From positions 1 through 10,073 of the forward strand of contig JACOVV010000210.1 of NCBI GenBank assembly GCA_016177145.1: 10,073 bases of DNA. Direction: 5' to 3'. The translations under genes and the position numbers were made by a program. Shown here piece after piece: positions 1 through 2,725 of this stretch. Origin of the DNA: Candidatus Omnitrophota bacterium. GTDB taxonomy: Bacteria > Omnitrophota > Gorgyraeia > JACOVV01. Every line of letters begins with the position of its first letter. Position 1 is the first letter of the stretch. The notes beneath the pieces are model-generated. The model saw only the letters and a list, made by a program, of their open reading frames with translations, was not told the DNA's origin and did not search any database.

Positions 1-1880
1 AAGTATAACACATCCCCGTTGCAGATGGCAACGGGATGATCCGGGTCTAATTCCTTAATTCGTTTCGCCGCTTGATTGACGAATTCATAATAGGGTTCGG
101 GAAATTTCTTGGCGCTGTTGGCGACTCCATAATTGTTTTCATTCCCCAGCATCCAGAGAAGAACGTACGGTTCGTCTTTATACTCCAGGACCATTTTTTC
201 GACGTCTTCCAGCATTTTTTGACGCTGGTCCGGATGACTGTAATCGGTCCCTTCATACCAGCTCGCCCCTGAACCGACCGTGTACGCTCCCAGAAAATTT
301 CCCATGATCACGTAGAGTCCGTACTTGTCGTGGAGTTCCCTGAGCAATTTCTTATTAACGACCAATCCATGATGGTAAATGCGCAGAGTGTTAGCCCCCA
401 TTTCCTTCAAAAGCTGAAAATCGCCGATGACCGGCTCATCAGCATCCTGAATTCCATTCCGGTTTTTATCCACCCAGCTCTCGTAAGGGGCGTCGATTAG
501 ACCGTTTTTATTTTCGTCCGCGTTGGACCAATCCTCGAGAGTACCGTTGTCCGGGCTCTGGCCTACCTTGCTGGGAGTGTAGGCGACCGCCTTAATAAGG
601 AAAGGCATGGCGCCCACCATCAACTGCCAATGCCCGTCAGCCAACTGAATTAAACGAACCTTCCCGTTTCCCAGCACCTGGCGCGCCTCGGATTCTCTGA
701 CTTCTCCGTGGGGCCGGTAACTCACGATGGCGCGCCGCGCCGCTTCTTCAAGGCCGATCCTTGCCAGCCGTCCCGGATCCGTGATAAAAACGTCATTGTT
801 GATATCCGCGTCAAAACCATTCATCACCCGGATACCGCTCCCTTCCAGCGCCAGCCCCAGCTCTGGATGAACACGACAGAGGTAGGTTATTTTATCAATC
901 GCCGCCGGTCCCACATACCAGGGAGAATTCCAGTAAGTCCAGCCGATGGAATTCGGGAAATGGACCACAATCGCGTAATAGGCTTTGATCGCATGCTCGA
1001 ACAATCCGGATTTCTCCAGGATTTCAGCGGTGTTGAAGAGTTTAATCCCGCGGTCTTCGTTCTTGATCGACGCCCATTTGTAAAAGGCCGCGGCCAAATC
1101 GTCCGTATGCAAAAACTCCCAATGGTCCCCTTCCAGGCGTTTCTGCGCTTCCAAACGCTGGTATTCAGGATCTTCCAGGACCGATCTTGTGTTCGGGAAA
1201 ATTCCTTCCCCCGCGGCCTCGGCGAGTCCCTTGGGGTCGCGAATCTGATATTGGTAATCGCTGGTTCCTACGTTCTTAAACTCGCCATATTTTGAATATT
1301 CCACGATCGGCTCTTTACCGTAATCGAGCAGGGAAAGCCGCACCGGTTCTTTGACAAAACGAACCGATTCCACGCCGGCCGCGGCGGTTTTATTTTCCAA
1401 ACGTTCCAGTTTATACTGGCTTTCTTCGGCCGCTTTGACATACCAGCCCCGGGGATCCCACCACTGGGAATAGGGATACTGCTCGATGACCATCCGGAAC
1501 GCCTGGGCGGCTTGATCTATCTTCCCCTGCTTGAGATAAGCTTCCCCCTGGAGAAAATAAGAAGTGCCGACATCATTAAGCGCTTGATAGCGGTGGCGTT
1601 CGTCCACCGATGGGAAATTCGTCAGAGCGGATTGCTCCACGCGGGCTTGATCTTGATGCTGGTCAATGCATTGTTGGGCAGTCTGGATGGCCTGGTCAAA
1701 TTGCTGTTGGTCCATCGCCTGCCGCGCGGCGGTGATCAGCTCGTTGGTTGGCCGGCTTTCGCCGGCCAAGGAAAGTGGAGAATGGAAAGTAGAAAGTAGA
1801 AAGTACACTGTGAAAAACAAAAAAAGTACCGGCCTTCCCCACTTTCCACTTTCCACTTTCCACTTTCCGTCTTTACTCAT
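1..1880 (-). CDS. Exported TPR plus GH2-type TIM-barrel glycoside hydrolase, partial (C-terminus beyond window)
   Basis: An open frame runs without a stop from ATG at 1880 to the left edge (626 residues seen). The ATG overlaps the TGA of the upstream permease as ATGA, and GGGAG lies 10 bases upstream, which supports this start. Residues 1-17 are basic, 18-32 hydrophobic (VLFLFFTVYFLLSTF), and SLA-GES near 37-42 fits a signal peptidase I site, so export is predicted. Residues about 45-140 look like TPR helices (YFLQGEAYLKQGKIDQAAQAF). A second helical stretch follows at about 240-330. Two calcium-loop-like motifs, DENKNGLID (455-463) and DKNRNGIQD (471-479), sit just inside a GH2/clan GH-A-like barrel beginning near 405. 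LWMLGNENNYG places the likely acid/base at E581; the nucleophile would lie past the edge. Substrate unknown. The family call is good; the exact activity is inferred. Confidence 0.8.
   Translation of the reverse strand, partial: MSKDGKWKVESGKWGRPVLFLFFTVYFLLSTFHSPLSLAGESRPTNELITAARQAMDQQQFDQAIQTAQQCIDQHQDQARVEQSALTNFPSVDERHRYQALNDVGTSYFLQGEAYLKQGKIDQAAQAFRMVIEQYPYSQWWDPRGWYVKAAEESQYKLERLENKTAAAGVESVRFVKEPVRLSLLDYGKEPIVEYSKYGEFKNVGTSDYQYQIRDPKGLAEAAGEGIFPNTRSVLEDPEYQRLEAQKRLEGDHWEFLHTDDLAAAFYKWASIKNEDRGIKLFNTAEILEKSGLFEHAIKAYYAIVVHFPNSIGWTYWNSPWYVGPAAIDKITYLCRVHPELGLALEGSGIRVMNGFDADINNDVFITDPGRLARIGLEEAARRAIVSYRPHGEVRESEARQVLGNGKVRLIQLADGHWQLMVGAMPFLIKAVAYTPSKVGQSPDNGTLEDWSNADENKNGLIDAPYESWVDKNRNGIQDADEPVIGDFQLLKEMGANTLRIYHHGLVVNKKLLRELHDKYGLYVIMGNFLGAYTVGSGASWYEGTDYSHPDQRQKMLEDVEKMVLEYKDEPYVLLWMLGNENNYGVANSAKKFPEPYYEFVNQAAKRIKELDPDHPVAICNGDVLY
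1748..1769 (-). repeat. Perfect 9-bp hairpin with GAAA tetraloop
   Basis: TTGGCCGGC-GAAA-GCCGGCCAA is a perfect inverted repeat whose minus-strand transcript would form a stable GNRA-capped hairpin. It directly abuts the heptad array at 1770 and encodes the signal peptidase site and first mature residues (LAGESRP). Confidence 0.85.
1770..1804 (-). repeat. Inverted heptanucleotide array, 5 units of ACTTTCY
   Basis: Read on the minus strand the five contiguous units are ACTTTCT, ACTTTCT, ACTTTCC, ATTCTCC and ACTTTCC. They are complementary to the upstream array, with 36 bases between. In the gene frame they encode part of the hydrophobic and cleavage regions of the signal peptide (FLLSTFHSPLS). 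The degenerate units suggest an older array than its perfect partner. Confidence 0.95.
1841..1868 (-). repeat. Tandem heptanucleotide array, 4 x GGAAAGT (coding sense)
   Basis: Four perfect contiguous copies of the 7-base unit GGAAAGT (minus strand) begin 12 bases after the ATG at 1880. In the gene frame they encode GKWKVESGKW, the basic n-region of the signal peptide. The array is the reverse complement of the one at 1770-1804. Confidence 0.95.
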
Positions 1881-2725
1881 CCCTTAATCGCTCCCGCGGT
1901 AATCCCCTCGATAATGTAACGCTGCATGAGCAAGTATACCACGACGATTGGAATGACGGAGATCGTCATCCCCGCCATTAAAAGAGGATACTGGGTAATA
2001 TGCGCCCCCTGGAAAACCATCAATCCCCGCTGCAGGGGCATCAGTTCTTTATCCGTCAAGACAAGCATGGCCAGCAGGTATTCGTTCCAGACCGCCAAGA
2101 CGTTAAAAATGACCACCACGGCAATCGCCGGCTTGGCTAACGGCATGGCGAGGTGCCAGTAAATGCCCCATTTGGTGCAGCCGTCAATCCGCGCGGAATC
2201 TTCCAGATCCTTGGGGAGTTTTTCAAAAAATGTCTTCAAGAGGAAAATACTCAGCGCCAATCCGCCGTTGATTTGCGGCAGGATATAGCCCCAATGGGTA
2301 TTGATCAATCCCAGTTTATTGAGCAGAACATACAGAGCGATAAAAGCGCCGGGGATCGGGATCATCATGGTCGCCAGAAAGAGGATAAAGAAAAACTGCC
2401 GCCCTGGAAACCGGAGGCGGGCGAAAGCGTAGGCGGCTAAAGAACTGATCAACACAATACCCACCACGACGACCGTGCTGTAAAAAATGCTGTTCAGGAA
2501 ATAAACCCCAAAACCCCCTTTGGTCCACGCGTTCACGTAGTTCAGCCACTGTGGATTAGAAGGAAGCAGGCTAAAATCCGAAAAAACGGTCTCTTGGGTC
2601 TTTAAACTGGAGGCGGCCATCCAGAAAAGAGGAAAAAGACAAGTAGCGGCAACGCCGGCGCAGAAAAGCTGCATTACCAGTTTTAACCCAAATCTTTTGG
2701 CGCGATACTGGGTGACTGAGTACAT
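1877..2725 (-). CDS. ABC sugar transporter permease, MalG/UgpE type
   Basis: This is an inner-membrane permease of the carbohydrate-uptake ABC family (282 residues, usual length). Hydrophobic segments lie near 18-38, 77-100, 111-135, 152-164, 200-222 and 250-268. The cytoplasmic EAA-type loop that contacts the ATPase is DSARIDG at 176-182 followed by MPLAKPA. The motifs FPLFWMAASS, WNEYLLA and the C-terminal IIEGITAGAIKG are typical of MalG-like partners. It starts 16 bases after the stop of the other permease, and its TGA overlaps the ATG of the exported GH2-like gene, so the two are probably translationally coupled. It should pair with the neighbouring MalF-type permease as a heterodimer. 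Confidence 0.93.
   Translation of the reverse strand: MYSVTQYRAKRFGLKLVMQLFCAGVAATCLFPLFWMAASSLKTQETVFSDFSLLPSNPQWLNYVNAWTKGGFGVYFLNSIFYSTVVVVGIVLISSLAAYAFARLRFPGRQFFFILFLATMMIPIPGAFIALYVLLNKLGLINTHWGYILPQINGGLALSIFLLKTFFEKLPKDLEDSARIDGCTKWGIYWHLAMPLAKPAIAVVVIFNVLAVWNEYLLAMLVLTDKELMPLQRGLMVFQGAHITQYPLLMAGMTISVIPIVVVYLLMQRYIIEGITAGAIKG

Follow-up and report, generated by a model that had tools for sequence, protein, structure and literature searches.

Short repeats within or between bacterial genes have been described in several lineages. Rickettsia palindromic elements (RPEs) are short palindromic repeats of ~150 bp, in ten families, that are dispersed in frame inside unrelated genes (PMC10969869). 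The enterobacterial RU-2 element, or Yersinia palindromic sequence, is a 168-bp element resembling a miniature inverted-repeat transposable element (MITE) and is incorporated into a signal peptide (Delihas 2007; PMC2229807). Tandem repeats with a 7-nt unit, scattered over a single genome and varying in unit by taxon, are known as TAACTGA in Beggiatoaceae, GGGAATC in Xanthomonas and GGGGAYT in Nostoc; these lie mainly between genes, the G-rich ones being depleted in coding regions, and TAACTGA introduces stops when read forward (PMC4679880, PMC4692102). In Borgs, tandem repeats within open reading frames (ORFs), with units that are multiples of three and that commonly encode disordered regions, give rise to amino-acid repeats, and signal peptides are over-represented among the proteins concerned (PMC9879509). 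Here we analyse a stretch of 10,073 nucleotides, hereafter the window, from a Candidatus Omnitrophota bacterium (assembly GCA_016177145.1, contig JACOVV010000210.1), in which two opposed arrays of the heptamer GGAAAGT lie at the start of a gene for a GH2-like protein. We consider it likely that this dispersed palindromic heptamer element, placed at the 5' end of the gene, serves as its Sec signal peptide.

Arrays of this kind share with RPEs a dispersed distribution and overlap with open genes, but they are palindromic in only eight close pairs, the remainder being single arrays, some with uncertain starts. Their arms are heptamer arrays, the unit differs between sister species and the paired ones are mostly leaders, which sets them apart from RPEs as described. 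RU-2 likewise contributes to a signal peptide, whereas here heptamer arrays make the n- and h-regions in several genes, with units varying by species. As for MITE traits, no flank beyond the heptamers was shared in the few loci compared by eye, a comparison that did not extend to target-site duplications or a transposase. Unlike the known heptamers, the present arrays lie over genes, in many cases pair as hairpins and code for leaders, and unlike the Borg repeats a 7-nt unit forms the leader itself. RPEs and the Yersinia RU-2 leader are the nearest precedents. A literature search, thin on subscription journals, found no account of heptamer arrays that serve as signal peptides or occur in Omnitrophota, and within the literature searched the heptamer make-up, the fixed polarity, the recurrence in one gene and the exchange of units appear to be new.

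The first-pass annotation of this DNA had reported four perfect GGAAAGT units and five inverse ACTTTCY units, 36 bases apart. This description holds for all except one inverse unit, ATTCTCC, which departs at two bases (Table 1). The arrays span nt +13 to +111, or codons 5–37, inside the first 38 codons as had been claimed, and the ORF listing agrees that the frame stays open across both. Tandem Repeats Finder (TRF) detected two period-7 arrays in the leader, and the longest entry in the window's inverted-repeat list is a 28-nt repeat, 89% complementary. The inverted-repeat score of the leader was equalled by none of 60 shuffles. Folded as mRNA, the region gives a hairpin of -55 kcal/mol (z -4.3), and 0 of 200 shuffles were as stable; reinitiation at the ATGA overlap with the upstream gene could supply ribosomes despite this structure.

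Judged by plain Sec criteria, the leader MSKDGKWKVESGKWGR-PVLFLFFTVYFLLSTFHSPLSLA-GES is built like a signal peptide: a charged n-region (+3), a hydrophobic core (VLFLFFTVYFLL, 12 residues, mean hydropathy 2.73) and small residues at -3 and -1, with SLA at the likely cleavage site. A cut between SLA and GES would probably leave a mature protein that starts GESRPTNELITAAR. The proposal that the first array encodes a Lys-rich n-region stands; the second had been assigned part of the hydrophobic region, and the core is encoded mainly by the 36-base spacer together with the first inverse units.

A protein search with the GH2-like protein returned 650 proteins at E ≤ 0.001, those listed with names being mostly Candidatus Omnitrophota. 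In a search of genomes of the class we examined the best 30 loci (own and 29 others) of the 130 genomes with a match. In line with the expectation that the mature part would be kept while leaders were replaced, the 29 other loci show 48–73% identity in the mature protein and unrelated leaders. The alignments begin at residues 42–51, with a signal-peptide-like leader 5' of this point in most, which makes a start at Met56 unlikely; translation probably begins at position 1880. Leaders are also present in homologues that lack arrays, so the array here probably took the place of an earlier signal peptide; the idea that repeat DNA was adopted as a secretion signal is supported in amended form, as probable replacement and not as new export.

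Repeats recur in the leader of this gene in other genomes. Of the 30 loci, 13, own included (12 of the 29 others), have lag-7 tracts within the open leader region. Such tracts number 14 in 6.6 kb of leader regions; the remainder of those loci contains 6 in 130 kb, and comparison sequence totalling 1.2 Mb contains 11. The comparison set consists of 20-kb stretches, 60 in all, taken from 20 genomes of the class that were picked for long contigs, not at random. Ten of the 12 other tracts are at or after a plausible start, and two (L104, from genome G095, and L120) lie mostly before one; these uncertain tracts and starts leave the window gene's own case unchanged. The units include GRGACGA, ACTATCC, CGCTATA, AAAAGTM, CGGATTT, CTAAACC, TTTTCTG and others, not GGAAAGT, and one further homologous leader has an 8-base unit (AAGTCACA). 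The best-scoring other homologue, P0002 (71% identity), has an annotated leader, MIKDGEWRMEN...ILFFSFLVFLFFPFSILYSPFSLAGESRP, that contains SPFSLAGESRP and is laid out like that of the window gene; judging from the protein, it may be built from GGAGAAT-type units.

The window is the whole of contig C149 in its genome (G000), a metagenome-assembled genome (MAG) of 1.23 Mb, 60% complete, in 237 contigs. A search there for three GGAAAGT units with ≤3 mismatches gave 45 overlapping matches versus 2 for the reversed control, and the identical pattern in the sister species (G001) gave 1 versus 3; two exact units occur only in G000 and, once, in G001 among the 59 genomes searched, own included. The arrays of G000 thus form a tandem heptamer family of period 7 that is dispersed and commoner than chance. 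We grouped the 45 matches into 24 arrays, all of which overlap stop-to-stop ORFs of at least 100 codons. The earlier remark that such short repeats are usually intergenic does not fit the arrays examined here in G000, and the genome search suggested with it found further arrays overlapping genes, often at leaders. Adding arrays from a weaker search brings the total to 22 array-bearing genes, 21 of them with a Pfam or NCBIfam match (that to LptD is weak). This set excludes arrays on C168 (contig end) and C117 (short ORFs), and low-score two-unit matches (C11, C26, C47, C54, C55, C81, C109 and others) were left out of the gene-context analysis.

By our reading, 10 of the 22 genes would carry their arrays as export or prepilin leaders. 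They are the window gene and those for a TPR protein (C63), a protein without family match (C87), LptE (C155), an M48 lipoprotein (C162), COX2 (C166), an amidase lipoprotein (C213), an LptD-like protein (C232) and two prepilin-like proteins (C222); the families matched by these leader genes include T2SSJ and an N_methyl prepilin. In one C222 prepilin the array forms the leader itself, KMENGKWRMENG before FSLIEV. The non-leader genes encode RimO (two arrays), PheT, TsaD, RsmH, a heptosyltransferase, WaaA, an HlyD-type protein, GltX, ArgJ, CoaX, QueC and an ArsP permease. Comparison of PheT and GltX with solved structures revealed no clear length-adding insertion, the array sitting in variable loop columns, and at the second CoaX array a loop falls ~9 residues short of its counterpart in a solved homologue.

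Pairing and position are associated. G000 holds eight close inverted pairs, seven of which are export or prepilin leaders and one of which lies inside the ArsP permease, against three leaders among 16 single arrays (Fisher p 0.002). Polarity is nearly constant: the purine strand is the sense strand in 15 of the 16 single arrays (p 0.0005), and the purine arm comes first in 32 of 33 pairs overall, other phyla included. These comprise 8/8 pairs in G000 (one, on C63, with a weaker arm), 4/4 GRGACGA pairs in the fetched G001 loci (22 of 45 G001 matches had loci), three of them apparently not at an exported leader, and 20/21 GGAAAGT-array pairs in other phyla, among the matches listed. The sole single array with pyrimidine sense (G000:C190:3596-3609) is in CoaX, at a shortened loop, where it reads VPISTFHFPR. 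Beyond the Omnitrophota, three exact GGAAAGT units occur in at least 116 stretches (L215-L330) from Bacteroidota, Peregrinibacteria, Chloroflexota and others, many in long unvalidated ORFs, and the Bacteroidetes MAG RUG14564 holds many such arrays.

How might such an element come to encode a leader? Because seven is not a multiple of three, any frame of a heptamer array yields one 7-residue repeat, and GGAAAGT encodes GKWKVES in all three frames and TFHFPLS on the reverse strand. Both GGAAAGT and GGAAAAT are stop-free in six frames, the latter also including an ATG, whereas variants such as GGATAGT have stops. Purine-arm peptides (GKWKVES, GKWKMEN) are rich in Lys, Trp and Glu, and pyrimidine-arm peptides (TFHFPLS, IFHFPFS) in Phe, Leu and Ser. 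We propose that the element has the form (GGAAART)n-spacer-(AYTTTCC)n, made of degenerate GGAAAGT heptamers and placed at the 5' end of a gene. A ribosome reading through this hairpin would produce a charged n-region and then a more hydrophobic stretch, the layout of a signal peptide, because the purine arm is charged, the pyrimidine arm is more hydrophobic and the polarity is fixed. Selection would then retain pairs where the protein is exported, and lone purine arms at the N-termini and in the loops of cytosolic proteins.

The sister species carries different units at the same sites in a comparison that covered the GH2-like leader, RsmH, ArgJ and RimO. Its GH2-like leader is a GRGACGA hairpin with the ATG inside the array itself, giving MRDEGRKSRWTTDVRSLGQRTILSFSSFVLCFSSLVSLFFIVPQLSYA-DQN. 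Before or at the N-terminus, RsmH has a GGAAAGT array in G000 and GRGACGA in G001, and ArgJ has GGAAAGT and CAGCGTT, respectively. In the TRAM loop of RimO, GGAAAGT in G000 corresponds to TCAGTCG in G001, and two other aligned members of the class lack the insertion; the first RimO array has no G001 counterpart. Either the arrays are ancestral and the unit has changed, or the sites have been hit again. Several 7-mer families are present in G001. A second array there, of AGCTTGG units, is in the mature GH2-like coding region, at about residues 119–134 after the start of homology (L096, G001:C76). At four other loci (L188, L202, L204, L207) an interspersed repeat read as FDPAQGRR or SPALSRVEG adjoins GRGACGA arrays in open frames, in one case ahead of a putative GrpE.

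Several observations weigh against the view that heptamer arrays supply signal peptides. In two other lipoprotein families near-N-terminal lag-7 tracts were restricted to the G000 copy (M48, 1 of 22 usable loci; amidase, 1 of 29), after exclusion of 8 and 1 of 30 loci, respectively, with a match that started too far inside. Such tracts near the start number 4/30 for RimO and 2/30 for ArgJ, own included; as these sets (the best 30 loci per search, of 168, 147, 195 and 191 genomes with matches) are drawn from different genomes, the contrast between families is unmatched. Across 391 kb from eight genomes with a repeat leader region at the GH2-like gene, 17 lag-7 tracts were seen; several are inside long conserved-looking ORFs, and none lies at another signal peptide that we recognised. 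Array leaders are therefore not the rule for secreted proteins, and we reject the notion that Omnitrophota signal peptides are in general heptamer-made. In-frame arrays of other units, in long ORFs resembling conserved genes, were seen at L453:11572-11741 (G050) and L458:122-152 (G095).

Further points on the same side concern structure, starts and assembly. Clear inverted repeats, beyond all 60 shuffles, occur in only 3 of the 30 leader regions (own, G001 and G095). Selection for leaders would by itself produce part of the fixed polarity in G000, where the two are confounded; elsewhere they are much less so. In RimO (first array), RsmH, COX2 and ArgJ the open frame lacks an ATG at or 5' of the array, so that a GTG-type start may be needed or part of the array may be untranslated. 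L104 lacks an ATG or GTG before its repeat, and the annotated protein, P0079, starts downstream. The MAG is incomplete, and arrays at two contig ends (G000:C168:6958-6978 and C183:4-24) and in a disrupted tsaD make misassembly possible at some sites. The contig-end arrays suggest that the assembly breaks at such repeats and that more arrays exist than were counted. In tsaD (G000:C83:4300-4334, equivalent to L070:1501-1535) the array sits where the family match ends, at profile position 228 of 314, and the frame stops soon after; the gene may be broken, or the assembly may have been joined here at repeats.

The repeats might act primarily as a nucleic-acid element (an mRNA hairpin, a regulator site or structural DNA), with leader coding a tolerated by-product of a stop-free unit. 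We regard this as unlikely, although the hairpin is far more stable than shuffled sequence, the same polarity recurs in other phyla and 55 of 141 clusters there lie outside long ORFs (among the matches listed, with ORFs unvalidated). Moreover, 50% of all 7-mers are stop-free in six frames, so openness alone is no sign of coding selection. What such a role by itself does not predict is that pairs fall at export leaders (7/8), or that the pyrimidine strand is sense in only 1 of 16 single arrays.

A bolder version of the leader hypothesis, improbable as a whole, treats the arrays as portable modules that bring a Shine-Dalgarno-like GGAG, an ATG (GGAAAATGG) and, in every frame, a charged n-region with a hydrophobic stretch, such that one insertion at the 5' end of a gene would replace a signal peptide in a single step. 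At fixed sites in the genome, sister species would swap units (GGAAAGT versus GRGACGA, CAGCGTT or TCAGTCG) through telomerase-like, fixed-polarity addition of a species-specific 7-mer to DNA ends; this end-addition step is speculation. A reverse transcriptase as the source of the arrays was considered and found unsupported, RVT_1 being detected in 0 of 4 genomes searched, two of them incomplete (the control was positive in 3 of 14).

Could the repeats instead be neutral, selfish or slippage products that are tolerated at N-termini and in loops, with a signal peptide arising by chance? The 12 of 22 array genes that read as non-exported, with arrays in loops or N-termini, fit this explanation. 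Coding sequence makes up ~90% of a bacterial genome, and matches within genes would thus be expected absent removal. Yet neutrality leaves unexplained the difference between pairs and singles and the repeat leader regions at 12 of 29 other loci, unless leaders are the most tolerant sites, and we hold it to be quite unlikely as the full account; neutral insertion may well be the route by which arrays arrived before selection. Translation from Met56, with the arrays as untranslated leader DNA, is highly improbable and was rejected: codon 56 is an in-frame ATG and P0079 is annotated from beyond its repeat region, but homology begins upstream of Met56, most homologues have signal-peptide-like leaders there and the annotated P0002 protein has a leader laid out like that of the window gene.

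The window carries eight clear ORFs, all on the minus strand (Table 1). The GH2-like protein matches PF02836 at residues 482–619 (E 1.1e-11, in a gene truncated by the contig end), as expected of a predicted GH2 TIM barrel. The first-pass annotation was correct about the ATGA overlap, through which translation of the GH2-like gene is likely coupled to that of the upstream permease. The GGGAG motif that it had cited in support of the start is present, at a rather long spacing from the ATG.

Table 1. Features of the window and of its leader element
Feature	Position	Strand	Product or basis
Whole leader MSKDGKWKVESGKWGRPVLFLFFTVYFLLSTFHSPLSLAG	1761..1880	minus	cleavage likely after SLA, residue 39, before GES
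Purine arm, four perfect GGAAAGT units	1868-1862, 1861-1855, 1854-1848, 1847-1841	minus (coding)	encodes GKWKVESGKW, Lys-rich n-region
Degenerate fifth purine-arm unit GGGGAAG	1834..1840	minus	array scored as 1834-1868
36-base gap between perfect arrays	1805..1840	minus	encodes about GRPVLFLFFTVY, most of hydrophobic core
Pyrimidine arm: ACTTTCT, ACTTTCT, ACTTTCC, ATTCTCC, ACTTTCC	1804-1798, 1797-1791, 1790-1784, 1783-1777, 1776-1770	minus	
Pyrimidine arm product	1770..1804	minus	about YFLLSTFHSPLS, end of h-region and c-region
GH2-like/TPR putative exported protein gene, 626 aa, runs off contig end	3..1880	minus	ATG 1880-1878; ORF, Pfam TPR and Glyco_hydro_2_C
ATGA overlap, upstream permease stop and GH2-like start	1877..1880	minus	permease ORF ends 1877
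GGGAG, possible Shine-Dalgarno	1891..1895	minus	10 nt 5' of ATG; sequence reading
ORF products: putative small membrane protein (from the ORF), ROK regulator, GH94 phosphorylase, GH26, sugar-binding protein, two ABC permeases, GH2-like TPR protein		minus	ORFs and Pfam

Signal peptides evolve fast, and to our knowledge the origin of new ones has been little studied. If the heptamer element serves as proposed, repeat DNA would be a repeated supplier of signal peptides, with a charged purine arm and a more hydrophobic complement giving the layout by construction. Heptamer repeats, so far described mainly between genes, are found here inside housekeeping genes, with units that differ at shared sites between sister species. 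Both points, the supply of leaders and the presence of heptamers within genes, can be tested in other genomes.
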